A stretch of 64,000 bases of DNA from Mycolicibacterium fallax (GTDB lineage: Bacteria > Actinomycetota > Actinomycetes > Mycobacteriales > Mycobacteriaceae), in NCBI RefSeq assembly GCF_010726955.1, contig NZ_AP022603.1, positions 372,001 through 436,000 on the forward strand, given 5' to 3'. Below are positions 1-46,605 of this stretch, piece after piece. Within the stretch, counting starts at the first letter, position 1. Every line of letters begins with the position of its first letter. The notes under the pieces are model-generated. The model was not told the DNA's origin. It worked only from the letters and a program-made list of their open reading frames with translations, and searched no databases. The position numbers were made by a program, and so were the translations under genes.

Positions 1-118
1 ACGCGCCGGGGCCGCCGCCGTGCAGCATCACCACCGCGGGCCCGGCGCCGTGTTCGGCGACGAAGATCGGCTTGCCGGACACGGTGACGATGCGTTCGGT
101 CAATGGGCTGGTGATCAT
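1..118 (-). CDS. Alpha/beta hydrolase, N-terminal part only (MhpC/HsaD-like C-C bond hydrolase)
   Basis: Only the first 39 residues are inside the window; the gene runs off the left edge. The fragment ends in the motif HGGGPGA, the oxyanion-hole signature of alpha/beta hydrolases that cleave meta-ring-fission products (BphD, MhpC, HsaD). Its ATG overlaps the TGA of the upstream monooxygenase as ATGA, so the two are translationally coupled in one operon. An aromatic monooxygenase followed by a C-C hydrolase suggests an aromatic degradation pathway. That role is inferred from the motif and neighbour; the catalytic Ser, Asp and His lie outside the window. Confidence 0.75.
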   Translation of the reverse strand, partial: MITSPLTERIVTVSGKPIFVAEHGAGPAVVMLHGGGPGA

Positions 119-1786
119 GCGGAGACTCCGATCGTGGTGTGGGCGGGGATTGGCGGGGCGGGCAACGGTCTGCCGGATTGTGTTGCGGCGTAGACGAACC
201 CGTCCGGTCGCACGATGACGGCGGTGGCCTGGTAGCGGTGCATCCAGGCGGTCAGGACCCCGGAGACGTCCGGCGCGGCGAGGTCGAGGGCGGGCACCCC
301 GCGGGCGGTCCACGCGGCGGTGCCGGCCGGCGGTGCGCCCAGGTGCAGCAGCGTCCACCGGCCGCCCAGCAGGTCGTCCAGGCGCACGGCGGTGCCGTCG
401 GCCCGCCGCACCCGGGGCTGCGGCAGCTGCCGCCCGGCCGCGCGATGGTCGCCGACGAAGAAGCCGTCGCGGTAGCGGGCCTCCGGAATCCACCAGAACC
501 GCTGCGCCCACGTGACCAGGCCCGGGACCCTGGAGAGCGCCCGCAATCCGCGATTGCGGGCGGTCGCGAGCCAGCGCCGCCGCTCGTTGATGACGCGGCC
601 GACCAGCACGGCGCGCCGGGTCACCTCGGTGACGTGCGGCTTGCGTTCGGCCTGATAGGAGTCCAGCAGCCGGTCGGGCGCCTCGCCGCGCAGCACGGCG
701 GCGATCTTCCAGCACAGGTTGGCCACGTCGCGGACCCCCGCGCCCATGCCCTGACCGATCCACGGCGGCATGGCGTGCGCGGCGTCGCCGGCCAGGAATA
801 CCCGCCCGACGCGCCAGCGGTCGGCGACCCGGACGTGGTGGCTGTAGCAGACCGCGCGCAGGATCTTGACGTTGTCGGGCCCGATCCCGCGGCGGCGCAG
901 CAGTGTCCAGATCGCCGTGTCGGTCAGCAGCTCGCCCTCATCCTCGTCGTCCTGGACGGGGAACTCCCAGCGGTGGTGCCCGAGCGGGGTCGGGCAGTCG
1001 ACCATCGGCCGGGCCGGGTCGCAGTGGAAGCGCATCAGGTCGTGACCGGCCCATTCCTGGATGATCTCGGTGTCGATCACGATCCAGCGTTCCTCGTAGG
1101 TCCGCCCGCTGTACGACACGCCCAATTGGCCTCGGGTGGGCGAGGATCCGCCGTCGGCGGCGATCACGTAGCGCGCACGCAGTCGTCGCAGTTCGTCGCC
1201 GCGATGGTCGACCAGCAGCAGTTCGACGCCGTCGTCGGTGTCGGCGACCCGCAGGCATTCGTGCTCGAGCAGGATCTCGACGGTGCCGAATCGCTCGACG
1301 CCGTGGCGCAGCACCTCGTCGACCACCGGCTGGTAGAGGAACTGCTGTGCGGGATGCCCGGCCGCGCCGCCGGCGAGGGCGGACTCGATGAAGGCGATCC
1401 CGTCGGCGTCGACGAAGGCCACCGGGCGGTTGGGCATCATGTCGGCCTGCAGCCGGTCGGCCAGCCCCACCGACTGCCAGATGCGCATGACCTCCTCATC
1501 GGTGGAGATGGCCCGGGCGCGGCCGTAGATGTCGGGATCGCGTTCGATCACCGCCACCCGCAGGCCCTGTTGGCCGAGCAGATTGGCCGCGGTTGCGCCG
1601 GTCGGCCAGCCCCACCGACTGCCAGATGCGCATGACCTCCTCATCGGTGGAGATGGCCCGGGCGCGGCCGTAGATGTCGGGATCGCGTTCGATCACCGCC
1701 ACCCGCAGGCCCTGTTGGCCGAGCAGATTGGCCGCGGTTGCGCCGGTCGGCCCGTATCCGATCACCGCTACGTCGTAGGTCTCCAC
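115..1786 (-). pseudogene. FAD-dependent aromatic monooxygenase (MhpA/PheA-TfdB type), frameshifted by a 145-bp tandem duplication
   Basis: From the GTG at 1786 the product begins METYDVAVIGYGPTGATAAN, the Rossmann FAD-binding GxGxxG of class A flavin hydroxylases. Later residues include a GD motif (FLAGDAAHAMPPWIGQGM) typical of 3-(3-hydroxyphenyl)propionate or phenol hydroxylases. Bases 1452-1607 and 1597-1752 are the same 156 bp, offset by 145 bp. As 145 is not a multiple of 3, the GTG-started frame shifts after GLAD and stops near 1496. The rest of the protein stays open as a 1.5-kb frame to 115 but has lost the intact dinucleotide-binding start. Removing one copy would restore a normal gene of about 500 residues. 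A spacer of about 90 bp with a strong dyad separates it from the divergent TetR gene. It could be a true mutation, a reversible switch or an assembly error. Confidence 0.8.
1452..1752. repeat. 145-bp tandem duplication with 11-bp junction homology
   Basis: Positions 1452-1607 match 1597-1752 without a difference that I can find, a direct repeat with a 145-bp period. The 11-mer GCCGGTCGGCC occurs at 1452, 1597 and 1742, at both outer ends and the centre. This is the signature of a duplication that arose by slippage or recombination between short homologies. It lies in the 5' part of the flavin monooxygenase gene and shifts its frame by +1. Confidence 0.9.
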
Positions 1787-30822: not shown

Positions 30823-31058
30823 CTATTCCTCGGTGTGGTGTGTGGCGCTGCACCGGGGTCCTGGCCGTGGGCCGGTGTCCCCGGTGCAGTTCGATCCGTC
30901 GCCCGCCCCTCGTCAGGCGACGGCACCGTCCGCGGAATCCACGGCGGTGGTCTGTGCGGCGGCCTCGCCGATGGGTTTTCTCCTCGTTTCTCGTGCCGCC
31001 GCGTGACGGCGGGTTGGCACGAGATTCACATCTGAGATGAGAACTAACAATGGTCTGA
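30823..31058. other. Structured non-coding gap upstream of the hsd operon
   Basis: I see no convincing gene here. It contains two perfect hairpins: CTGCACCGGGG (30848-30858) / CCCCGGTGCAG (30879-30889) with an inner GGCC-GTG-GGCC, and CCGTCGCC (30896-30903) / GGCGACGG (30916-30923). The right part is AT-richer and runs into the operator of the hsd operon. The hairpins could end transcription coming from either side, or belong to a small RNA. Confidence 0.5.
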
Positions 31059-31097
31059 ACTGATAAGGGGACTTATCAGTCTTATCTATGGTTATCT
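31059..31097 (+). promoter_or_regulatory. Operator and promoter region of the hsd operon
   Basis: ACTGATAAG (31059-31067), a GGGA spacer and CTTATCAGT (31072-31080) form a perfect 9-bp inverted repeat. The half-site core TTATC recurs at about 31073, 31082 and 31093. A -10-like TATGGT (31087-31092) lies beside it, about 50 bp before the first gene. The first gene encodes an HTH protein, so autoregulation is a reasonable guess. Confidence 0.6.
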
Positions 31098-31141
31098 GAT
31101 CCGCAGTGATCTATGTTCACGAGGGACAGGAGGGGGTGGAC

Positions 31142-33016
31142 GTGAACACACTGACGTTGCAGGACGTGGCCGATTTGGCCGGCGTGCAGCGCCCCGTCGT
31201 CAGCATGTGGCGCAGGCGCCCCACGGTCAGGGGCGTGTCGATGCCGTTCCCTGAACCGTGCGAGACCGCCGGCGGGATCTCGATGTTCGCTCGCGACGAG
31301 ATCGTCGACTGGTTGGAGCGCACGGGCCGAGGCAACAACGCCGAGGTGGTGGCCGACGCGCCCGCTCTGGCGGTTCCGGAGGGCGCCGAGCTGGAGGACA
31401 TCGTCACGTTGCTGGTCTGGCATGTGCTCACCGGCGAGGACCTGGCGGGGACTTCGCACGCCTACCGCGTCAAACGTGGTGCTGCGGTGGACCCCGAGGA
31501 CGCGGTACTGCTCCACGAACTGACCCAACTGCGCGTTCCCGATGCGGTGCTGGACTACGTGGACGCCTTGCTGGGCGCATCGTTCGGCCCCTCCGATGCG
31601 CTGGCCCGCCTGGAGCGCGGCAGGCTCACCCGGCGCCGAGGTGACCGAGACCTGACCCCCGAGGCGATCGAACTGCTGGCTCAGGTCGTCGGCGCCGCAG
31701 CTGTTCATCAGGGGCCGGACTCGGTCACGCTGCGCGTTCAGGGTGGAGCGGCCGCCCTCGAAGTCGCTTCGATCGACGGTGTCTCGGTCACCACCGCCGA
31801 CCGGTCCCTGGTGCGACGCGCGTTGCTGTGCGACATCCCCCTGTCGGACCGCCACGGCACCGCGACGGTCTCCTTCCTCTCGACCATCGGATTGGCCCCC
31901 GGCGAGGTGCTCGATCGGGCCGACGACGCTGTTCTCGAGCTTCCACCCGGCCACATTGCCGTCGTGCTAGGGCCGGCCGAGGCCCTGACCGATGCGCTGG
32001 CGGGGCCATTGCAGAACAGGCGGGCCGAGGTGCTGCGGGTGCGTAACGTCGTCGCGGCGCTGCGGATGCCGCGCGGACTCTGGCGTGAGGCGCACCGGCA
32101 GAGTCTGGCGCTGTGGGTCTGCCTGGGCGGCGCGAACGAGGACCGGCCCTGGGTGGGCGACCTGGCGGGCGAGCCTGCGTTGGCACCCGGCGACGTTGCC
32201 GCCGACGTGGCGGCCGCGTTGGCACAGACCGAGGAGCGGTCTTTCCGGTATCTGCGCCGCATCGACCTCTCGACGATCGTCGCGGGTCGCACCGTTGTTC
32301 CGCGCGGTGTACGAGCCACCACCATGCGATTGCTCGACACCGACACGCATGTTGATCACGTGCACCGGGCGACGCTCGTCACCAGCGCGCCGGTCCCGGT
32401 GCTTGACGTTCTTGTATCGGCAGCGCCGGGGCACGTGCGGCTCGTGCAGCACTCACTGGCCGAGTTGGTCGACGCCAAACGCCTGGTGGTGAAACGCGGC
32501 ACCCGGATCAACCCAGACCATCACAGCGCCGAGGGTTCGGTCGAAGTGCTGCAGCCGGGGCGCGACCGGCTCCGGCTCGATCCGATCGATGCCGAGCGGC
32601 ACTATCCCCGCTCCACGCGTACCCAGCCCGGAGATGTGGTGATCTGTGAACGTCCCGAGCCTTGGGCGTGGGTGGACCGCACCGGTGGTGCGATGGTCGC
32701 CTCCCCAGCCTTGATCCTGCGGCCGGCACCGGCGGCCGGACTCGGCCCACGACTGCTGGCCGAGGCCATCAACACTCGAGGCCGCGGCACCGAGTGGAGA
32801 TCGTGGACGGTGCCGAACGTCGAGCCGGCCGAGGCCACACGGCTGGAGGCCGTACTGGAAGATCTTGATCATTACCGCGACGAACTCTGCGAGCGCCTCG
32901 AGGCGGCCGGGGAGTTGGCCAATGCCCTGATCGACGGCGTCTCCGCCGGAGCCCTGACCCTCGACGCCGGAGATGCCGGCGCCGCAACCCGAAGGAACCC
33001 CGATGCCACCGCGTAA
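31142..33016 (+). CDS. HTH + degenerate N6-methyltransferase-like + half-HsdS-like protein at the head of the hsd operon
   Basis: A 624-residue protein, start GTG chosen for AGGAGG 8 nt upstream. Residues 1-65 are an excisionase/MerR-like HTH (LTLQDVADLAGVQRPVVSMW). About 80-420 parallels the HsdM core: LTPEAIELLAQVVGAAAVH, then RVQGGA (198-203) where motif I DPxxGxG should be, then DDAVLELPPG (E266-G270) where the catalytic NPPF/Y should be, then VVAALRMPRGLWREAHRQSL matching the VSCMLALPTQLFRS region of HsdM. About 500-624 resembles half a specificity subunit (TQPGDVVICERPEPWAWV ... coiled coil ... LIDGVSAGALTL). The catalytic motifs look lost. It overlaps hsdM by 14 bp. Role unknown: a regulator or structural subunit of the type I complex is inferred. 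Confidence 0.75.
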   Translation: MNTLTLQDVADLAGVQRPVVSMWRRRPTVRGVSMPFPEPCETAGGISMFARDEIVDWLERTGRGNNAEVVADAPALAVPEGAELEDIVTLLVWHVLTGEDLAGTSHAYRVKRGAAVDPEDAVLLHELTQLRVPDAVLDYVDALLGASFGPSDALARLERGRLTRRRGDRDLTPEAIELLAQVVGAAAVHQGPDSVTLRVQGGAAALEVASIDGVSVTTADRSLVRRALLCDIPLSDRHGTATVSFLSTIGLAPGEVLDRADDAVLELPPGHIAVVLGPAEALTDALAGPLQNRRAEVLRVRNVVAALRMPRGLWREAHRQSLALWVCLGGANEDRPWVGDLAGEPALAPGDVAADVAAALAQTEERSFRYLRRIDLSTIVAGRTVVPRGVRATTMRLLDTDTHVDHVHRATLVTSAPVPVLDVLVSAAPGHVRLVQHSLAELVDAKRLVVKRGTRINPDHHSAEGSVEVLQPGRDRLRLDPIDAERHYPRSTRTQPGDVVICERPEPWAWVDRTGGAMVASPALILRPAPAAGLGPRLLAEAINTRGRGTEWRSWTVPNVEPAEATRLEAVLEDLDHYRDELCERLEAAGELANALIDGVSAGALTLDAGDAGAATRRNPDATA

Positions 33017-34613
33017 AAAGGCCGACGCCGCTGCCGTGCCGTCAACGATGAAGGAACTCAAGGACACGCTGTGGAAGGCCGCGGACAAGCTGCGCGGGTC
33101 GCTGTCGGCCAGCCAGTACAAGGACGTGATCCTGGGGCTGGTTTTCCTCAAGTACGTCTCCGACGCCTATGCCGAACGCCGCGAGGCGATTCGCGCGGAA
33201 CTCGCCGCCGACGGCATGGACGCCGAGCAGATCGAGGATCTCATCGACGACCCGGAGGAGTACCAGGGCTACGGGGTGTTCGTCGTCCCCGAACGCGCCC
33301 GGTGGAGCTTCCTCGCCGATCATGCCAAGGGCCTCGGTGGCAAGACGGTCGGGCAGCTGATCGACGAGGCGATGGCCGTGGTGATGAAGGCGAACCCGCA
33401 GCTGGACGGCACGTTGCCGCGAATCTACAACCGGGACAACATCGATCAGCGTCGCCTCGGTGAGCTGATCGACCTGTTCAACAGCGCCCGGTTCTCCCGC
33501 CAGGGAGAACACCGGGCCCGCGACTTGATGGGCGAGGTGTACGAGTACTTCCTGGGCAACTTCGCCCGCGCCGAAGGCAAGCGGGGCGGGGAGTTCTTCA
33601 CTCCGCCGAGCGTGGTCAAGACCCTTGTCGAGGTCCTCGAGCCCACTAAGGGACGGGTATATGACCCGTGCTGTGGCTCGGGCGGCATGTTCGTACAGAC
33701 CGAGAAGTTCATCTACGAACATGACGGTGACCCGAAAGACGTTGTCGTCTATGGCCAGGAGTCGATCGAGGAGACCTGGCGGCTAGCGAAAATGAATCTG
33801 GCCATCCACGGCATCGACAACTCGGGGCTCGGTGCCCGCTGGGGCGACACCTTCGCCCGCGATCAGCATCCGGGCGTGAACATGGACTACGTGCTGGCCA
33901 ATCCGCCGTTCAACATCAAGGACTGGCGCCGCAACACCGAGGATCCGCGCTGGCGCTACGGCGTGCCCCCGGCCAACAACGCCAACTACGCCTGGATCCA
34001 GCACATCCTTTCCAAACTGGCGCCCGGCGGTAAGGCCGGTGTGGTGATGGCCAACGGATCGATGTCGTCGAACACCGGCGGTGAGGGCGACATACGCGCG
34101 CAGATCGTGGAGGCCGATCTGGTGTCCTGCATGCTGGCGCTGCCCACCCAGCTGTTCCGCTCGACCGGGATCCCGGTGTGCGTGTGGTTCTTCGCCAAGG
34201 ACAAGGGGATCGGGGAGCAGGGTTCGGTCGACCGGTCGGGGCAGGTGCTGTTCATCGATGCCCGGGAGATGGGCTACATGGTCGACCGGGCCGAACGGGC
34301 ACTCTCGGATGAGGACATCGTCAAGATCGGTGACACCTACCACGCCTGGCGGGGCTCGGCCTCGGCCGCCGCCAAGGGTGTTGTGTACGAGGACGTTCCG
34401 GGATTCTGCAAGTCGGTGCCGTTGCCCGAGATCGCCGCCGCTGGGTATGCGCTCACTCCCGGCCGTTACGTCGGGGCGCCGGAGGTCGAGGACGACGGTG
34501 AGCCGATCGACGAGAAGATCGCCCGATTGAAGAAGGAACTGCTGTCGGCGTTCGAGGAGTCAGCCCGGGCGGAAGCCGTGGTGCGCGAGCAGTTGGAGCG
34601 AGTCGATGGGTGA
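33003..34613 (+). CDS. hsdM: Type I restriction-modification methyltransferase subunit HsdM
   Basis: A 536-residue N6-adenine methyltransferase subunit. The N-terminal HsdM helical domain reads KELKDTLWKAADKLRGSLSA and VILGLVFLKYVSDAY. The SAM site is DPCCGSGGMF (D221) after GGEFFTPPSVVKTLVEVL. The catalytic motif IV is NPPF (300-303). All expected motifs are intact, in contrast to the protein encoded upstream. With HsdS it methylates one adenine in each half of a bipartite target. The ATG lies 14 bp inside the upstream gene, and the end overlaps hsdS by 8 bp, so the three are tightly coupled. Confidence 0.96.
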   Translation: MPPRKKADAAAVPSTMKELKDTLWKAADKLRGSLSASQYKDVILGLVFLKYVSDAYAERREAIRAELAADGMDAEQIEDLIDDPEEYQGYGVFVVPERARWSFLADHAKGLGGKTVGQLIDEAMAVVMKANPQLDGTLPRIYNRDNIDQRRLGELIDLFNSARFSRQGEHRARDLMGEVYEYFLGNFARAEGKRGGEFFTPPSVVKTLVEVLEPTKGRVYDPCCGSGGMFVQTEKFIYEHDGDPKDVVVYGQESIEETWRLAKMNLAIHGIDNSGLGARWGDTFARDQHPGVNMDYVLANPPFNIKDWRRNTEDPRWRYGVPPANNANYAWIQHILSKLAPGGKAGVVMANGSMSSNTGGEGDIRAQIVEADLVSCMLALPTQLFRSTGIPVCVWFFAKDKGIGEQGSVDRSGQVLFIDAREMGYMVDRAERALSDEDIVKIGDTYHAWRGSASAAAKGVVYEDVPGFCKSVPLPEIAAAGYALTPGRYVGAPEVEDDGEPIDEKIARLKKELLSAFEESARAEAVVREQLERVDG

Positions 34614-35781
34614 TTACACGCTCGGTGAGCTCAGTGACAATGGTCCATTGGAAATGAGCGACGGTTATCGGACGAAGCGTTCCGAACTCGGTCAGCCGGG
34701 GTTTCGGATTCTCCGGGTGGCCGACGTCGGAGACTGGTGTGTCTCCACCTCAGGTGACGATTTTGTCCGCAAGGAGTTTCGACGACAGATCGGTTCGAAG
34801 CTGAGTGCGCCCGGTGATGTGCTCCTCAGTACCAAGGGCACTATTGGGCGGGTCGCACTATTTCCGGAGTTGGCAGAGCAGGTTGTCTATAGTCCACAGT
34901 TGTGTTTTTTTCGAGTTCTAGATCCTGAGGTAATTGACGCGCGGTATCTCGCCTATTGGTTGAAATCTCCGGAATTTTTACGTCAGGCTTCCTATCGGTC
35001 AAATAGCAGCGATATGGCACCATACATCAGTCTTAGGGATCTGCGCAGCGTGTCCGTGAACCTTCCCGATGTATACACTCAGCGCGCTATTGCGGGCGCG
35101 TTAGGTGCCCTCGACGGCAAGATCGCCGCCAATGAGCGCGTTTCTCGCGATGCGGATGAACTTGCTGGATCGCTGTGGACTCGGTCGGTAGTGGACGGGC
35201 GATCGCTACCTTTGTCGGAGTTGGCGCAGTTTGTGAACGGGAGACCTTTTACTAAATCTGCTAGCGGCACTGGCAGGGTCGTAGTCCGTATTGCTGAACT
35301 AAATTCGGGAATTGGTCCCTCCACTGTGCGCAACGATATCGAGGTTGCCGACGAGTACGTCGTCCGCCCCGGTGATCTGCTGTTTGCGTGGTCGGGATCG
35401 TTGACAGTTGCCCGCTGGTTTCGGCCGGAGGGGATTGTAAATCAGCACATCTTCAAGGTGATTCCAAAGTCAGGATTCCCGATCTGGCTGTTGAACCAGG
35501 CTATCCGGTCCAAATTGGCTGAATTCAAGGCCATCGCCAGCGATAAAGCGACAACGATGGGTCACATTCAGCGTCGTCATCTAGATGAGCCCGTAAAAAT
35601 TCCAACGACCGGCTCAATTGAAACGCTGGATCCTGCGATGGGTGCGTTGTGGTCAGCCGCGCTCGCGGCTGAAATAGAGAACCTGAAGCTCGCTCGCACC
35701 CGGGACGAACTCCTCCCGCTCCTGATGTCCGGCAGGCTCCGGGTCAAGGACGCCGAAGCGATCGCATCGGATGTGCTGTGA
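34606..35781 (+). CDS. hsdS: Type I restriction-modification specificity subunit HsdS
   Basis: A 391-residue HsdS with two target-recognition domains, residues about 1-150 (VLLSTKGTIGRVALFPEL, YISLRDLRSVSVNLP) and about 195-345 (GDLLFAWSGSLTVARWFRPEG, TTMGHIQRRHLDEPVKIP). Each is followed by a conserved helical spacer (QRAIAGALGALDGKIAANER; DELLPLLMSGRLRV). The base composition is clearly more AT-rich than all neighbours, with A/T-ending codons common. That is typical of horizontally exchanged HsdS recognition domains. The start ATGGGTGA overlaps the hsdM stop. The DNA target cannot be read from sequence. Confidence 0.94.
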   Translation: MGDYTLGELSDNGPLEMSDGYRTKRSELGQPGFRILRVADVGDWCVSTSGDDFVRKEFRRQIGSKLSAPGDVLLSTKGTIGRVALFPELAEQVVYSPQLCFFRVLDPEVIDARYLAYWLKSPEFLRQASYRSNSSDMAPYISLRDLRSVSVNLPDVYTQRAIAGALGALDGKIAANERVSRDADELAGSLWTRSVVDGRSLPLSELAQFVNGRPFTKSASGTGRVVVRIAELNSGIGPSTVRNDIEVADEYVVRPGDLLFAWSGSLTVARWFRPEGIVNQHIFKVIPKSGFPIWLLNQAIRSKLAEFKAIASDKATTMGHIQRRHLDEPVKIPTTGSIETLDPAMGALWSAALAAEIENLKLARTRDELLPLLMSGRLRVKDAEAIASDVL

Positions 35782-35834
35782 GAAGGACTCGACGGTCGCG
35801 AGTTCCAAGCGCGGGGACCCGATTCCCCGGGCAG

Positions 35835-36257
35835 TTAGTTGATGTCCTGCGGCGTGAATTCGACGATCGCCTTTTCATTGAGCATGTAGATCCACGGACC
35901 CGCCGGGCGGTCAGCGACGATCTGTTCCATCTGCGGCCAGTGCCGCACCACCCGGACCAACCAGTCCCATGTCGACATGTCTCTTTTGCCGCCGATGTTG
36001 AACACCCGCAGTCCGTGCTCCCAGAGGGTCCGGATCTCAACCGGCTTGGTGCGCAGCTTTTTGTCCCGGGCGATGACGACGAGGCCACGTCTGGCGACCT
36101 CCGGGATCCACTCGGTGTCGAGCGCGCCGCGCGGGCATTCGGGGATCAGCGAGTGCCCCACCGGGACGGTGTCCTTGCGGGCGGCGGCCAGCGCCAACCC
36201 GAGGCCGGCAGCGCTCTCATCGACGTAGAAGCGGAGGCGGCTGGCAACCGGGGCCAT
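35835..36257 (-). CDS. VapC45-like PIN-type toxin (Rv2019 type)
   Basis: A 140-residue protein with a PIN-like core: RLRFYVDESAAGLGLALAAA at the start (first acidic Asp-Glu), LDTEWIPEVARRGLVVIARDKKL in the middle, and EIRTLWEHGLRVFNIGG. This matches the length and style of M. tuberculosis VapC45 (Rv2019, 138 residues) rather than the short classical VapC. PIN toxins are Mg-dependent RNases. Its partner gene ends 18 bp upstream on the same strand. The pair runs antisense between hsdS (54 bp away) and hsdR. Toxicity and the RNA target are inferred from family only. Confidence 0.78.
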   Translation of the reverse strand: MAPVASRLRFYVDESAAGLGLALAAARKDTVPVGHSLIPECPRGALDTEWIPEVARRGLVVIARDKKLRTKPVEIRTLWEHGLRVFNIGGKRDMSTWDWLVRVVRHWPQMEQIVADRPAGPWIYMLNEKAIVEFTPQDIN

Positions 36258-36275
36258 CTTTTCGTCGGTCCTGGA

Positions 36276-37007
36276 TCATCCGGCCAAGGCCGCGTACGCC
36301 CCGGCGGTCTTGAGCTCGTAGCGGACCGCGTCCTCGACGAGTCCTTGGGGCAACTCGTAGAGTTCGGCGATCATCTCGATCGGATCCCCGGCGACGTACA
36401 GCTCGCGGATCACCTCCGTCGGAACCCCGCCGGTGGCGGGCTCACCGAAACGCTGCAGTGGATTGACCACGACGCTGTGAATCGCCGGGTCGGGACTCAG
36501 GCTGGTCACCACGGTGCGCTTGGAACGGCCGCTGCCGACCTCCTCCCAGTTCAGCGAGTCGGCGAATTCCTGGGCCTGCGGCGACCAGGCCAGCATCTGC
36601 TGGTCATTGCGCACCACCACCAGGCGCAGCCGCCGGTGCAGGCCGACGGTCTCCTCGACGCGGCGCACCAGTTCGCGCCCCTCGACCGCCAGCCAGGTCT
36701 TCGCCGAGGCCAACGGATACGGGGTGCCCAGCTCCTCGCGAAGGCGTTCCACCGCCGGCCGCATCTTGACCAGCGGGACGCCCTCCTCGCGGTACTCGGC
36801 CAGCAGCCGAGCCTCGATGAACTCGCCCCAGGTGACGGCCTCGTCTCCGGTGCGCTCCGGCCGGATGACCGGCGGGTAGCTCTTGCCGCCTCTGCGGTAG
36901 CCGTCGATCCAACGCTGCGACGTGCCGGCGCGAACACCGAGGATGCGGTCAACCTGGCCGAACCCGTACACGGGCCGGTCCTGGAGTTGGACCGCGTCGC
37001 TGCTCAC
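36276..37007 (-). CDS. VapB45-like antitoxin: HTH + DUF433 (Rv2018 type)
   Basis: A 243-residue protein. The N-terminal MerR-like HTH is YGFGQVDRILGVRAGTSQRW (about residues 14-33). A linker with an EARLLAEYREEGVPLVKMRP helix follows. The C-terminal DUF433-type domain contains PATGGVPTEVIRELYVAGDP and IAELYELPQGLVEDAVRYE. Both length and order match M. tuberculosis VapB45 (Rv2018, 239 residues), an antitoxin unlike the short VapB proteins. The GTG start at 37007 is divergent from hsdR, so antitoxin and restriction subunit share a control region of about 100 bp. It probably represses its own operon; this is inferred. Confidence 0.78.
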   Translation of the reverse strand: MSSDAVQLQDRPVYGFGQVDRILGVRAGTSQRWIDGYRRGGKSYPPVIRPERTGDEAVTWGEFIEARLLAEYREEGVPLVKMRPAVERLREELGTPYPLASAKTWLAVEGRELVRRVEETVGLHRRLRLVVVRNDQQMLAWSPQAQEFADSLNWEEVGSGRSKRTVVTSLSPDPAIHSVVVNPLQRFGEPATGGVPTEVIRELYVAGDPIEMIAELYELPQGLVEDAVRYELKTAGAYAALAG

Positions 37008-37105
37008 AAGGCCACATCATGCCAGCCCACCTGGCGAAGCCGCGCCCGACTTTCCACAGCTCATCCGCATCGCCGAATGCATTGCCCAACCAGCAGGGGG
37101 ACGTC

Positions 37106-40100
37106 GTGACCTTGTTCAGTGAAGCCGACTGGGAGCAGCTCGCGCTGGAAACCCTCGGCAGGCAGGAATGGCAGCACCTGAGTGTCGCGGCGATCGCGCC
37201 CGGCACCGAAGGCGGCCGCACCGGCTGGGATGACCTGGTGCTGCCGGATCGGATGCTGGCGCGGATGCGGGCGCTGAACCCGCAGATCCCACCGGAGTAC
37301 CTGGAACAGGCCCGGGCGAGCATCATCGCGGCGACCTCCGCCGATGCGATGGCCGAAAACCACCGCATCCACGACTATCTCGTGCACGGCTACCGCGGCA
37401 TCACCTACATCGACGACAACGGGATCGAGCAGACCCCGACTATCCGGCTGGTCGGCACCCGGCCCGAGGACAACGAACTGCTGGCCGTCGACCAGGTCAG
37501 CATCCGGGCCGGGGATCGGCAGCGCCGCTTCGACATCGTCGCCTACCTCAACGGCATGCCGGTCGCGCTCTTCGAACTCAAACAGGCCGGCGCGCGGGGG
37601 GCGGACCTGGCCGCCGCGCACGCACAGCTGCAGACCTACCTGCGGGAGTTCCCGCTGGCGTTCCGGTTCGCGGTGTTCAACGTCATCAGTGACGGCATCA
37701 CCGCCGCCTACGGCACCCCGTTCACCGGCTACGAGCACTATGCGCCGTGGAACGTCGACGACGACGGCATGCCGGTGCAACCGGGCGCGCCCCTTGACGA
37801 CGAACACAGCGGCACCGCTCTGGAATACCTCATCGAGGGACTGTTCAACCCGGAACGATTTCTGCAACTGCTCCGCAATTTCACCGCGTTCGACTCCGAC
37901 GGTGACGGCCTGCGCAAGCGAATTGCCAAGCCGCATCAGTACTTCGCCGTCACAAAGGCCGTCGGCACGACGGTCGACGCCTTCGAAAGCGACGGGAAGG
38001 CCGGTGTTGTCTGGCACACCCAGGGCTCGGGCAAATCCATGGAGATGGAACTGTTCACCCACCTGCTCGGCGAGGCGCCCAAGCTGAAAAATCCCACCAT
38101 CGTCGTTGTTACCGACCGCACCGATCTCGATGACCAGCTGTTTGAGACCTTCAGCCGCTCAGAACTGCTGCGCGAACATCCGAAGAAGGTGACGTCGCGG
38201 TCCGAACTGCGCCGCGAACTCACCGAGCGCGTCACCGGAGGCATCTACTTCACCACGCTGCAGAAGTTCGGCCTGACCCAGGTGGAGAAGGACGCCGGCG
38301 CCGAGCACCCCCTGCTCTCGGAGCGGCGCAACATCGTCGTCATCGTGGACGAAGCGCACCGCAGTCATTACGACACCCTGGACGGATACGCCCGGCATAT
38401 CCGCGATGCACTGCCCAATGCGGTGTTCATCGCGTTCACCGGCACCCCCATCGCCGAGGCAGACCGCAACACCCGCGCGGTATTCGGCGACTACATCGAC
38501 ATCTATGACCTGACCCGAGCCGTGGACGACGGCGCGACGGTCCCGGTCTACTTCGAGCCCCGGCTGATCCGGGTGGGCCTGGCGCAAGATGTGACCGAGG
38601 CCGACCTCGACCGCGCCGCCGACGAGGCCACCGCCGGTCTCGACGACACCGAGCGCGCCCAGATCGAGAAGTCGGTGGCGGTGATCAATGCCGTCTACGG
38701 TGCCCCGCAGCGACTCGCCGCGCTGGCCGCCGACCTGGTGGCGCACTGGGAGAGTCGCTCCCAGCAGATGTCGCGCTTCATTGAAGTCCCCGGTAAGGCG
38801 CTCGTCGTCGGTGCCACCCGGCAGATTTGCGCCGACCTATACGAGGAGATCATCGCGCTGCGCCCGCAGTGGCACAACGATGCCATCGACAAGGGCGTCA
38901 TCAAGGTCGTGTACTCCGGAGCGGCCAAAGACCAGGGGCGCATCGCCAAACACGTGCGCCGCGAGGCCCAGAACAAAACCATCCAACAGCGACTTCGCGA
39001 CCCCGACGACGAGTTGCAGATCGTCATCGTCAAGGACATGCTGCTGACCGGCTTCGACGCCCCGCCGCTGCACACGCTCTATTTGGACCGGCCACTGCGA
39101 GGCGCGCTGCTCATGCAGACCCTGGCGCGGGTCAACCGGACCTTCCGCGGCAAGCAGGACGGCCTGCTGGTGGCCTACGCCCCGCTGGTGGAGAAGCTCA
39201 ACGCCGCGCTGGCCGAATACACCACCAGCGACCAGCGCACCAAGCCGTTGGGTCGGCGCCTCGATGAGGCGGTGGCGCTGACCGAGACGCTGATCGGCCA
39301 GATCGATGCACTGACCGCCGGTTACCCGTGGCGGACGGTGGCCACCGGGGCGCCGGGCAGTTGGCGTAAGGCCGCTCTCGGGCTGACCAACTACCTGAGC
39401 TCGCCGGAGGCGACCAAGGCGGCCGCCGAGGGCCAGCCGAGCCGGCAAGAGCGGTTCCGAGCCCTGACGAACCAACTGGCCCGTGCTTGGGCGCTGTGCT
39501 CCGGGAACGAGACCCTGGCACCGCTGGCTCAGACAGTGCGGTTTTACGAGGAGGTTCGGGTCTACCTGGCCAAGTTCGCCGCCCAGGAACGGCAGTCGTC
39601 CGGCCGGCCGATCCCGGAGGACATTCGCAGGATGCTGTCCACCCTGGTGGACGAGTCGACGGCATCGGGGCAGATCGTCGACATCTACGCCGCGGCCGGG
39701 CTGCCGAAGCCGGCGCTGGCCGATCTGGACGCCGAGTTCGCCGCCAAGGCGCGCAACACCGACAACCCGCACCTGGCGATTGAAGCGCTGCGGGCGACGA
39801 TCACCGAGGAGGCCGCGCGGAACACCGGCGGGAACCTGGTGCGTCAACGGGCGTTCTCCGAGCGCATCACCGACCTGATGCGTCGCTACACCAATCAGCA
39901 GATCACCTCGGCCGAGGTCATCGCCGAACTCGTCGAGATGGCGAAAGAGATTGCCGCAGAGGGGGATCGTGGTACCCGCTTTGATCCACCGCTGTCCCGC
40001 GACGAACTCGCCTTCTATGACGCGGTGGCGGCCAACGAGTCCGCGATCGAGCAGCAGGGTGAGGAGGTTCTCGCCCAGATCGCCCGGGAACTCGTCGCCG

Positions 40101-40309
40101 TGATGCAACGGGACACCAAGCGGGACTGGACGGTTCGTGACGACGTCCGGGCCAAGTTGCGTTCGGTGATCAAACGACTACTGGTCAAGCACAAGTACCC
40201 GCCGGACAAACAGCCGGAGGCGATCAAACAGGTCATCGAGCAGATGGAAGAGCTCGCGCCGCGATATGCGGATCGGGCGGAGATTATCGGGGAGGAACAA
40301 CAGCTATGA
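37106..40309 (+). CDS. hsdR: Type I restriction endonuclease subunit HsdR
   Basis: A 1067-residue motor and nuclease subunit. The N-terminal PD-ExK nuclease shows D143 (RRFDIVAY) and E157-L-K159 (ALFELKQAG). The SF2 translocase follows: Walker A HTQGSGKS (about 304-311), DEAH 415-418 and FIAFTGTPI. Then comes DMLLTGFDAPPLHTLYLDRPL, and a C-terminal helical domain that docks on the methylase core. All key residues are present, so it should be active. The GTG at 37106 is chosen over an upstream ATG (37019) because AGGGGG precedes it. M. tuberculosis has HsdM/HsdS here but, as far as I recall, no HsdR. Confidence 0.94.
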   Translation: MTLFSEADWEQLALETLGRQEWQHLSVAAIAPGTEGGRTGWDDLVLPDRMLARMRALNPQIPPEYLEQARASIIAATSADAMAENHRIHDYLVHGYRGITYIDDNGIEQTPTIRLVGTRPEDNELLAVDQVSIRAGDRQRRFDIVAYLNGMPVALFELKQAGARGADLAAAHAQLQTYLREFPLAFRFAVFNVISDGITAAYGTPFTGYEHYAPWNVDDDGMPVQPGAPLDDEHSGTALEYLIEGLFNPERFLQLLRNFTAFDSDGDGLRKRIAKPHQYFAVTKAVGTTVDAFESDGKAGVVWHTQGSGKSMEMELFTHLLGEAPKLKNPTIVVVTDRTDLDDQLFETFSRSELLREHPKKVTSRSELRRELTERVTGGIYFTTLQKFGLTQVEKDAGAEHPLLSERRNIVVIVDEAHRSHYDTLDGYARHIRDALPNAVFIAFTGTPIAEADRNTRAVFGDYIDIYDLTRAVDDGATVPVYFEPRLIRVGLAQDVTEADLDRAADEATAGLDDTERAQIEKSVAVINAVYGAPQRLAALAADLVAHWESRSQQMSRFIEVPGKALVVGATRQICADLYEEIIALRPQWHNDAIDKGVIKVVYSGAAKDQGRIAKHVRREAQNKTIQQRLRDPDDELQIVIVKDMLLTGFDAPPLHTLYLDRPLRGALLMQTLARVNRTFRGKQDGLLVAYAPLVEKLNAALAEYTTSDQRTKPLGRRLDEAVALTETLIGQIDALTAGYPWRTVATGAPGSWRKAALGLTNYLSSPEATKAAAEGQPSRQERFRALTNQLARAWALCSGNETLAPLAQTVRFYEEVRVYLAKFAAQERQSSGRPIPEDIRRMLSTLVDESTASGQIVDIYAAAGLPKPALADLDAEFAAKARNTDNPHLAIEALRATITEEAARNTGGNLVRQRAFSERITDLMRRYTNQQITSAEVIAELVEMAKEIAAEGDRGTRFDPPLSRDELAFYDAVAANESAIEQQGEEVLAQIARELVAVMQRDTKRDWTVRDDVRAKLRSVIKRLLVKHKYPPDKQPEAIKQVIEQMEELAPRYADRAEIIGEEQQL

Positions 40310-41166
40310 CAATTCGTATTCACCGGGCGCTGACCGCGGTCCAGGGGTACGCCGGGGAACCGGTGCCCGAGGGCGCCTACGAGATGTTGGACCAGCAGCA
40401 GCGCCAGATGGCCGGGGACCTCTGGGACGCCGCCGATGCCGAGGCCGACGGACTGCGCGGCGCCGCCGCCGTGACGGCTGCACTTGCCGCTCATCATCAG
40501 GCCGAAGAGGTGGTCGTGGACCTGGTTGTGCTCGGATCCCTCGATCCGCGGGCCGTCCACGAGGACCGACACCGCGACCTGTATGGGGCGGGCCTGGGTG
40601 CACCGGTGGATCCCACGGAGAGCGCTGCGACCCGCGCCGACACGCGACACTGGTTTGCCGAAGCCGAGCGCCGCGGCGTGGACATCGAAAGGATCGGCGA
40701 TCACGGATCATATTCGGGCGCCGATTCGATCGAGAGCCTTGCGCTGCCGCCGAGGGCGCCCTGGGGTCCGGCCGACCACCGGGCGATGCTGGAGGATGCC
40801 GTCAGGCTGCACGGACTGGCCCCTGGGCGGTGGATCGAACTGGAATGGCCGCCGACCGCGGGGCTGGCAACCCCAGGGCAGGTCGTCACGACCAGCTTCG
40901 CGCCGTGCGACCGGCACGAGAACGATGCCGACGAGTCACGCTGGGATGACTGTGCGGACTGCCAGGATTCGGTGCGCGAGGTTGTCGAAAGCATGGCCGA
41001 GTGGACGTGGATCGCGCCGCTGACCGTTCGGCAGATTCGTTTCGACGTCGACGGTACCGAGCGCAGCGAGGTGGTTTACGCCGATCCCGGCCACGAAGTG
41101 GCCACCACGACGCAGGATCCTCGGGACGTCCTGATCGGCCCGCCGGGGCGCGACACGAAGTGGTGA
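40306..41166 (+). CDS. Unknown protein translationally coupled to hsdR
   Basis: A 286-residue acidic protein; its ATG overlaps the hsdR stop (ATGA), so the two are read from one mRNA. The N-terminal 60 residues are helical and Ala-rich (YEMLDQQQRQMAGDLWDAAD). The middle has LPPRAPWGPADHRAMLEDAV and GLAPGRWIELEWP. Near the end, SFAPCDRHENDADESRWDDC plus a following CxxC-like pair could bind a metal, and the last 60 residues are beta-rich. No membrane segment or signal peptide. I do not recognise a family. Position and coupling suggest a partner or modulator of the restriction system, but no motif proves it. Confidence 0.7.
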   Translation: MTIRIHRALTAVQGYAGEPVPEGAYEMLDQQQRQMAGDLWDAADAEADGLRGAAAVTAALAAHHQAEEVVVDLVVLGSLDPRAVHEDRHRDLYGAGLGAPVDPTESAATRADTRHWFAEAERRGVDIERIGDHGSYSGADSIESLALPPRAPWGPADHRAMLEDAVRLHGLAPGRWIELEWPPTAGLATPGQVVTTSFAPCDRHENDADESRWDDCADCQDSVREVVESMAEWTWIAPLTVRQIRFDVDGTERSEVVYADPGHEVATTTQDPRDVLIGPPGRDTKW

Positions 41167-44591: not shown

Positions 44592-45467
44592 TCACACCCG
44601 CTGCGCGACGGCGGTCCACTCGATCTGCGACCCGGTCAGGTCGCGTCCGGTCGGGCGGATGTAGGTGTCGCGGTAGTACGCCGGGCCGGCCTGCTCGGAG
44701 AGCCGCCAGCCGTGTTCGTGCAGGACCTCGCCGAGCTGCTCGGGGACGAACCCGGTCTGCCACACCTGGGTGCGGTCCCGGAACCGTCGGTACAGCGACT
44801 CGGCGCCGTAGCGGTTCTCGCCGTCGATGAAGTCCTGGCGCACGTAGCTGAAGATCAGCTGGCTGCCCTCGGCGGCCGCCGCCAGCCGGGTGAACATCGC
44901 GCTCACCGCCGCGGGGGAAAGGTACTGGGTCAGCCCCTCGGCGATGAACAGGGTGCGGTGGCCGGCCTGGAACGTGTTGTCGGTCAGGGTTGTCCAGATG
45001 TCGTCGCGCTCCAGGTCGGCGACCACCAGGTGAACCGAATCGGGTTGCGCGCCGAGCACCCGGTGCACCACCTCGGCCTTGCGGTCGATGTTGAGTTGCT
45101 GGTCGACCTCGAACACCGGCAGCGCCGAATGCCGGGCGATCCGGTAGGCGCGGGTGTCGAAACCGGCGCCGAGCACCACCACGGCGTCGAAGGCGTTCAG
45201 CGGATCCGACACCCGGTCGTCGATCAGCCGCTTGCGGCAGGCCAGGCTCGCCCACAGCCCGGGTCCGGCGCGGTCGGCGGCCCGCACCAGCGCCTCGCGC
45301 ACCCAACCGATCCGGGCCGCGGCCACCAGCGCGCGCAGCCGGGGCGGCAGAAACGCCGCCGCCAGGTCGTCGTCGACCAGCCGGCGGCCGGCCGGGTACT
45401 GGTGCTCGATCGCCGCCAGCACCATCGGCCCGAAGGCGGTCTGGGCGGCGGCGTTGCTGGACACCAC
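44592..45467 (-). CDS. SAM-dependent methyltransferase, leucine-carboxyl-methyltransferase family (Rv2751 type)
   Basis: A 291-residue member of the PF04072-type family that is expanded in mycobacteria. The SAM loop reads AVVVLGAGFDTRAYRI. Further family features are VFEVDQQLNIDRKAE, FIAEGLTQYLSPAAVSAMF, and the C-terminal FVPEQLGEVLHEHGWRL. Substrates of most mycobacterial members are unknown. The GTG at 45467 lies 2 bp after the SDR stop, and a second GTG follows immediately, so it is the last gene of a three-gene minus-strand operon. The order (monooxygenase, SDR, methyltransferase) matches Rv2749-Rv2751. Confidence 0.88.
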   Translation of the reverse strand: MVSSNAAAQTAFGPMVLAAIEHQYPAGRRLVDDDLAAAFLPPRLRALVAAARIGWVREALVRAADRAGPGLWASLACRKRLIDDRVSDPLNAFDAVVVLGAGFDTRAYRIARHSALPVFEVDQQLNIDRKAEVVHRVLGAQPDSVHLVVADLERDDIWTTLTDNTFQAGHRTLFIAEGLTQYLSPAAVSAMFTRLAAAAEGSQLIFSYVRQDFIDGENRYGAESLYRRFRDRTQVWQTGFVPEQLGEVLHEHGWRLSEQAGPAYYRDTYIRPTGRDLTGSQIEWTAVAQRV

Positions 45468-45469
45468 GT

Positions 45470-46288
45470 TCAGCGCTTGTTGGTGTAGCCGGCGTCGACC
45501 GGCAGCGCGACCCCGGTGACGTAGCGGCCGGTGTCGGTGACCAGGTAGAACGCGGCGTTGGCGATGTCCTCGGGGTCCAGGGTCTGCACCGGCAGCGCGT
45601 TGCTCATGTCGGGGCCGCCCTGGGACTGCTGGGCCAGGCCGTCGAGCCAGGATCGGGTGAAGTCGTTGTCGATCATCGGTGTGTTCACCCCGGCCGGATG
45701 CACCGAGTTGACCCGGATCCGGTGCGGTGCAAGCAGGTTCGCGTACACCCGCATCAGCCCGACGATGCCGTGCTTGGCCGCCGCGTAGCCGATCGAGCCG
45801 GCCATCGGCGCGGCAAGTCCGACCAGGCCGGCCACCGAGCTGGTCAGCACAATGGATCCGCCGTTGCCGTATTTGATCATCGGCCGCATGGCGGCCTCGA
45901 CGGTGTTGTAGACGCCGGTCAGGTTGACGTCGATGACGTCCTGCCAGGCGTCCTCGCCGGCCATCGGCGCGATGCCGGCGTTGGCGATGACGATGTCGAG
46001 CCGATCGCCCAGGGCGGCGGTCCCGTCGCGCAGCGCGGCGGTCAGGGCCGCGCGGTCGCGGACGTCGGCGTGCGCCGTCACGCACCGCGCGCCGGCCTGC
46101 GCCACCAGTTCGGCGGTGTGCTCGAGGTCGGCGGCATCGGCCAGCGGGTAGGGCACCGAGTCGATCGGTGCGCACAGGTCGACGGCGATGATGTCGGCGC
46201 CGGCACCAGCGAGCTTGACCGCGTGCGCGCGGCCCTGCCCGCGCGCCGCGCCGGTGATGAAGGCGATCTGCCCGTCGAGGACCCCCAT
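45470..46288 (-). CDS. Short-chain dehydrogenase, probably of the mycofactocin-coupled subfamily
   Basis: A 272-residue SDR. The NAD site is [15 protein letters not shown], the acidic strand DIIAVDLC, then IANAGIAPM, the catalytic Ser in [11 protein letters not shown] and YAAAKHG for Tyr and Lys. The GARGQGRxHA start, the long insertion after [14 protein letters not shown] and the VDAGYTNK end fit the SDR subfamily described as mycofactocin-dependent, whose NAD is held tightly. That assignment rests on resemblance only; the mycofactocin genes are not in this window. It lies 2 bp from both neighbours. Confidence 0.88.
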
Positions 46289-46290
46289 GC

Positions 46291-46605
46291 TCAGCCCCGC
46301 ACCAGCCCCTTGGCCGGGTCGCCGCCGTCGACCGGGGTGAGCACCTTGATGTCCGGGGCGCCGTCGAGCAGCGGCCCCACGGTGCCGAACAGCGTGGCGA
46401 CCGACGGCGCGGCGCTGTGCGCCTGCAGGGCGGCCTGATCGGCCCACTGCTCGACGAAGACGAAGGTGTTGTCGCTCTCGTGCAGGGCGTAGAGCTCGCA
46501 GCCCGGCTCGGCATGGACCTCCTCGACCGCCGCCCGGCAGGCCGCGCGGACCGCGTCGACCGTTTCGGGCAGGGCGGTCATGGTGGCGACAACGACAACC
46601 GGCAT
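46291..46605 (-). CDS. Antibiotic-biosynthesis-monooxygenase (ABM) domain protein
   Basis: A 104-residue single ABM (ferredoxin-like dimeric barrel) domain: [48 protein letters not shown] and AHSAAPSV. Such small proteins are quinol or aldehyde monooxygenases or heme-degradation relatives; the real reaction here is unknown. The ATG follows GAAGGAG, and TAGGGT on the minus strand (46648-46653) is a good -10 with a short leader. It is the first gene of the operon with the SDR and methyltransferase, the same set as Rv2749-Rv2751. Confidence 0.85.

Follow-up and report, generated by a model that had tools for sequence, protein, structure and literature searches.

The stretch of DNA analysed here (the window) comprises 64,000 nucleotides of the Mycolicibacterium fallax genome and contains a type I restriction-modification operon with the gene order X-hsdM-hsdS-hsdR, headed by a gene that we call X (Table 1). 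The hsdM start given in the table is the most likely one, picked from homologue alignments, and gives a 14-base overlap between hsdM and the end of X; the longest frame opens at 32973. The hsdR start is placed where the homologue alignments set in, the longest frame beginning at 37019. Between hsdS and hsdR, two genes on the opposite strand encode a PIN_10 protein and an HTH_66/DUF433 protein and likely form a toxin-antitoxin pair. The gap between hsdS and hsdR looks like a cargo site because other loci carry different genes there, such as those for YhcG (L021) and a 5'-nucleotidase (L034). The plus-strand ORF at 35778-37109 was rejected as an operon protein, as it matches no family and lies opposite the two minus-strand genes. 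After hsdR, a 286-aa protein (40306-41166, plus strand) has no match in Pfam, PADLOC or NCBIfam, and its relatives also follow hsdR at three other loci (L022, L027, and L028). In a 640-aa frame on the minus strand (44592-46514), residues 361-544 form a leucine carboxyl methyltransferase domain, and the long N-terminal part belongs to no family.

Table 1. Coordinates of the operon, of the parts of X and of the putative control elements upstream of X.
Feature	Position	Strand	Basis or remark
Outer CAA	31048..31050		Mirror partner of the -35 TTG in other mycobacterial loci
Operator palindrome CTGATAAG-N4-CTTATCAG, proposed X binding site	31060..31079		0 mismatches
-35-like hexamer TGGTTA (putative)	31089..31094	+	Position +29 of the palindrome
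-10-like hexamer TATGTT (putative)	31112..31117	+	17 bp after the -35-like hexamer
X	31142..33016	+	624-residue frame; winged HTH, degenerate HsdM-like fold and half-HsdS
X, winged HTH	residues about 1-66		Predicted structure
X, recognition helix (residues 17-25)	31190..31216	+	DSSP of both models
X, helical part and degenerate HsdM-like methyltransferase fold	residues 79-392		Predicted structure
X, half-HsdS (TRD and coiled coil)	residues about 410-603		Predicted structure
hsdM	33003..34613	+	PF02384, E 8.1e-114; DPCCGSGG and NPPF intact
hsdS	34606..35781	+	PF01420, E 2.7e-12, two stretches
PIN_10 protein	35835-36257	-	E 2e-13
HTH_66/DUF433 protein	36276-37007	-	E 3.6e-6
hsdR	37106..40309	+	TIGR00348, E 2.7e-142; PF04313; PF11867

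X is a real gene. The preliminary description had proposed that its product joins an N-terminal HTH to an HsdM-like middle part and a C-terminal half HsdS with its coiled coil, and structure prediction backs this anatomy. The wing of the N-terminal HTH may be MerR/Xis-like. The stretch of residues 80-420, for which a methyltransferase fold had been claimed, holds a predicted HsdM fold at 79-392, and the C-terminal part contains one TRD-coiled coil unit, whereas HsdS has two TRDs and two conserved helical spacers. Searches of X against Pfam, PADLOC and NCBIfam returned nothing convincing, the best Pfam match being a LacI HTH (E 0.067), and the Pfam N6_Mtase and HsdM_N profiles gave no match to X at E <= 1. 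Likewise, a direct profile alignment of X to HsdM gave no match (hhalign 0.2), and a profile search of solved structures with X found none at E <= 1. The mean column identity is 0.75 in the HTH and 0.62-0.67 in the body but only 0.50 from motif I to strand 4.

The SAM-binding motif I is absent from X, as had been noticed earlier, and none of the 83 locus X proteins fits its pattern; it is also found in none of the 120 homologues listed, a single match in P0030, which falls in the TRD region, being due to chance. The diverged X of one locus (L070) keeps DPTGCG, a weak vestige of motif I. Motif IV (NPPF/Y) is absent at its place in X and in the other locus proteins, 2 of the 83 having SPPW elsewhere, at about residue 286. 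The preliminary description took LELPPG for the substitute of motif IV, which was wrong, since LELPPG is a later loop; its conclusion that X is catalytically dead nevertheless stands on the absence of motifs I and IV. The neighbouring HsdM has both motifs intact, also as described. An active methyltransferase was rejected for X on account of the two missing motifs, and X is, as far as its sequence tells, a catalytically dead relative of the M-S fusions.

A protein search returned 425 relatives of X at E <= 1e-3; among the 120 listed, the named ones are actinobacterial and nearly all annotated as "hypothetical protein", and by these matches X is an actinobacterial family. In one public-genome scan, 95 places fell within the limit and 80 were kept, which gave 79 X loci. 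The gene directly after X is hsdM in 73 of the 79, bearing out the suggested co-occurrence with hsdM across Actinobacteria; no hsdM was seen in four (L068, L075, L092, and L094), and it is far away or unrelated in two (L053 and L083). HsdR was seen within the available DNA at 68 of the loci, and at seven further loci with hsdM, where the sequence stops at a contig end, it was not. Across loci, the neighbouring HsdM is 64-88% identical to that of the window and X only 29-57%. In a sample of the phylum, a single-sequence query (E <= 1e-3) found X in 7 of 396 genomes, several of the matches partial, and absences in the genome searches are to be read as lower bounds because only a few candidates were scored per genome.

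Upstream of X lies the palindrome CTGATAAGGGGACTTATCAG (31060-31079). With up to 3 mismatches allowed, it occurs once in the window, and with up to 2, once in the whole genome of 4,156,821 bases. For the study of this candidate operator we used the 83 loci with an aligned X N-terminus, from 90 given. The best site upstream of X scores at least 26 in 80 of the 83 loci versus 2 of 4150 dinucleotide shuffles, and at least 28 in 72 loci versus none of the shuffles, by a score that was shaped on the same sites it was then used to count. A sequence-blind test (arms of 8, spacer 4) found full complementarity in 36/83 loci versus 14/4150 shuffles, and 7 or more complementary arm pairs in 57/83 versus 255/4150. 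The gap between the palindrome and the aligned X start has a median of 81.5 bases and a range of 59-168 (82 loci). Two sites are weak, with scores of 22 (L056) and 20 (L060) that are reached by 30 and 123 of the 4150 shuffles, respectively. X, M, S and R also occur together on conjugative Arthrobacter plasmids (3 records matched), and both of the two inspected carry the palindrome, with scores of 32 and 31.

The palindrome accompanies X. Among the best 40 of 90 mycobacterial hsdM neighbourhoods, it is present in 20 of the 21 with X and in none of the 19 without X. In Candidatus Mycobacterium methanotrophicum (L022, the same species as L109), X and HsdR are intact and no operator was found upstream of X; at another locus (L104), X and R are broken and the operator is still there. 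At a Nocardia camponoti locus (L053), X and hsdM are 6.9 kb apart and an operator precedes each by about 100 bp, as would suit control in trans; a duplicate of the hsdM 5' region contains a third copy. Extra copies are few at a score of at least 29 in the 79 loci (two in L036, one in L048, and two in L053), and no second operator was found before hsdR in the window at a score of at least 26. In two Nocardia loci, such copies lie at a distance from X (L036 at 9419 and 20506; L048 at 8278) and may be additional targets.

A putative promoter stands at a constant distance after the palindrome in 19 mycobacterial loci, with TTG as the -35, a 17-bp spacer, and TAnnTT as the -10, the latter conserved at +52 of the palindrome. 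TTG occupies the -35 place in most mycobacterial loci, and the window has TGGTTA there. The centre of the palindrome lies about 54 bp upstream of the predicted start, and the site overlaps neither the -35 nor the -10; a MerR-type promoter, with the operator between these two elements, does not fit the spacing. On the other side of the palindrome, promoter-like bases are mirrored (31022-31117 in the window, and 19 mycobacterial loci). A CAA at -12 to -10 mirrors the -35 TTG, its three bases being conserved in 17, 17 and 18 of the 19 mycobacterial loci, and the -10 has its counterpart in an A/T pair at -38 and -34 in the window and the same 19 loci. The mirrored bases would be accounted for by a divergent promoter or by an outer half-site pair.

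Base 4 of the half-site varies: 75 loci have A, 6 have T on both sides, and 1 has a G/A mixture. Accompanying this variation, residue 19 of the recognition helix is alanine (A19) in all six T loci and valine (V19) in all 75 AA loci and in the single GA locus, and a site search that disregards base 4 yields an identical table. Among the 611 columns of X, V19 ranks first for base 4 with a normalised MI of 0.776, and the next, P18, reaches 0.239 (66 thinned loci). On a tree built without the HTH, which is a quick tree with SH-aLRT only, both traits change four times and 4/4 independent pairs agree; the sign test stops at p 0.125 and cannot reach 0.05, because there are only four independent changes. 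Half-site bases 1, 2 and 8 vary without tracking the HTH, and their best columns lie elsewhere in X. The TRD was considered as the reader of the operator and is unsupported, its mean covariation with base 4 being 0.051 versus 0.153 for residues 14-27. The covariation points to the HTH of X itself as the reader.

The palindrome might instead be bound by another regulator, with X having no role there and the match between V19 and base 4 reflecting shared ancestry of adjoining DNA. Operator and HTH are about 100 bp apart, hence joint recombination could carry them together, and the independent changes are only four. We consider this explanation highly improbable, however, since the genes flanking the operon differ between loci and X is always present, no locus among the 40 mycobacterial ones that has lost X retains the operator, and the other columns of the HTH and of X track base 4 far less well than V19.

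X also goes with HsdR. At E <= 1e-100, hsdM is found in 90 of 297 mycobacterial genomes; of these 90, 20 have an intact HsdR of the same clade (>= 56% identity) and 21 an intact X. X and HsdR are both intact in 20 genomes, X alone in 1, HsdR alone in 0, and neither in 69. The single genome with X alone (G500) keeps its HsdR in pieces; the 69 include one with both genes broken (G483) and one with an R of 41% identity from another clade (G487). The Fisher p of the association is 4e-19 in a test that ignores kinship, and the table is phylogenetically non-independent: in most genomes without X, the M is only 65-76% identical, probably representing one old solo lineage. Remnants of X beside an intact hsdM were found in five genomes (G029, G015, G625, G474, and G514) and remnants of R in two (G474 and G612). 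In G029 (L100 / L111), a C-terminal X remnant lies upstream of the intact hsdM with no hsdR nearby, and the neighbouring frames resemble thyA, dfrA and thyX by eye. By these comparisons, hsdM can persist in the absence of X, and X is rarely retained once R is gone. The link of X seems to be with restriction and not with methylation, as genomes that have lost X and hsdR still keep an intact hsdM.

Such an association would also suit a restriction enzyme subunit, in which X would be a dead M-S arm on HsdR-HsdM-HsdS for cleavage or loading, the HTH would contact DNA, and the operator would belong to another regulator or to a side function. In line with this, X retains the HsdM fold and the half-S with its coiled coil, its body is nearly as conserved as the HTH outside the segment from motif I to strand 4, it overlaps hsdM as co-made subunits do, and it accompanies HsdR, not HsdM. 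However, a subunit role leaves unexplained the unique X-linked palindrome and its covariation with the recognition helix, and related systems whose HsdR is about 42% identical consist of M, S and R without X. X was absent from 11 type I stretches of this kind (10 genomes of the phylum search and G487), two of which are incomplete, the sequence ending upstream of hsdM in one (L154) and no hsdM being seen in the other (L161). On this ground, the idea that every system of this type I family contains X was rejected, and we regard the subunit explanation as unlikely. X may also act as a brake, an in-house antirestriction protein that binds HsdR or M2S and restrains restriction, with an HTH that is only autoregulatory. 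X and HsdR are lost together, and by their fold the pseudo-M and the half-S could compete for subunits, but a genome with both X and HsdR broken (G483) argues against a brake, which we think very unlikely.

The best explanation is that X is probably a DNA-binding autoregulator of the type I operon, built from a dead M-S fusion. Comparison between loci reveals an operator that is conserved, goes with X and covaries with its recognition helix, and an X that goes with HsdR; from this pattern, we infer that X binds the operator and, as a dimer, controls transcription. The winged HTH would contact the two-fold symmetric site that immediately precedes the -35, the dimer presumably being held by the half-S coiled coil, and operator-bound X would set the transcription of X, hsdM, hsdS and hsdR. 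As a guess at the sign of control, the position of the site would fit either activation or repression by hindrance of the polymerase. The preliminary description had offered DNA recognition, complex assembly or operon control as the role of X; of these, operon control via the HTH is the one favoured now, given a palindromic operator that is conserved and varies in step with the recognition helix.

The 550 conserved residues of the M-S body count against an autoregulator, as they are not obviously needed by a plain regulator. If the body has kept the ability to pair with either HsdM or HsdS, it could signal how much of them is present. It is conceivable, though rather doubtful, that the decayed modification enzyme serves as a sensor, with X pairing with free HsdM, HsdS or recognition DNA and releasing or holding the operator such that HsdR is made only at complete protection. 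The M-S body would then measure free HsdM/HsdS or the DNA state, and HsdR would appear only once the DNA is protected, which is a guess. In that case, the balance between restriction and modification would be read out by a pseudoenzyme.

Type II C proteins are small XRE-type HTH proteins. Similar to X, they have a conserved operator at their own promoter, but X has 624 aa and an HTH whose wing may be MerR/Xis-like. In type I systems of gammaproteobacteria, RptR (PMC12255303) is a protein of 79 residues and four helices that binds repeated TAGCTA. Like X, it is encoded by the first gene of the operon and has conserved palindromic sites; it autorepresses its own promoter, and its operon also carries toxin-antitoxin cargo between hsdS and hsdR. 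X, in contrast, is 624 residues long, combines its winged HTH with an apparently dead M and half an S, and is associated with a single 20-bp palindrome. The C protein HsdC belongs to a type I hsd operon of Mycoplasma gallisepticum (PMC5282649; EcoSal review); it is likewise encoded upstream of hsdM-S-R and binds the promoter of its own operon, but it is a small member of the C-protein family that binds direct repeats, (GTGTTAN5)2, and lacks an M-S body. M.SsoII and M.Ecl18kI resemble X in having an N-terminal HTH-like region on a DNA methyltransferase, and theirs regulates the restriction operon (PMC3978073; PMC3695355). They are type II, active cytosine-5 enzymes that also methylate, whereas X is N6-type by fold, apparently dead, fused to a half S and adjoined by an HsdM of the active type.

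X therefore differs in anatomy from RptR, HsdC and M.SsoII alike. HsdM and M-S fusions such as 7eew_A share the fold of residues 79-392 and the half S with X, but they are catalytic, whereas X lacks motifs I and IV and has an HTH. Two different M proteins, as at the X locus, also occur in PacII M1M2S (PMC9613975), and X is, as had been proposed, a part outside the usual R2M2S description. Autoregulators of restriction operons are already known; one that, like X by its sequence, derives from a dead M-S fusion was not found in print, and the mostly open-access literature, among the matches listed, held no description of an X-like protein or of the palindrome as its operator. The transcriptional means by which type I systems spare a new host cell are poorly known, and the EcoSal review speaks of surprisingly little information on control of type I systems at the level of transcription. 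If X is an autoregulator, Actinobacteria, including many Mycobacterium species, would have in this dead modification enzyme a dedicated switch for the operon, and a family now annotated as hypothetical protein would gain a name and a function. The pair of V19 and base 4 makes the regulator reading specifically testable.

Longer mycobacterial HTH-MTase-TRD proteins (nine; L096 and L142-L149) have the same domain order as X and match it by profile with a probability of 99.4. Unlike X, they keep motif I as DPACGI or DFACGT and have EPPF or IPPF at motif IV, and PF02384 matched all four of the nine that were scanned. No palindrome of the X type was found in the 250 bp upstream of the nine genes. 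Four of them (L143 and L146-L148) have no hsdM detected nearby, and the other five (L096, L142, L144, L145, and L149) lie beside other type I operons.
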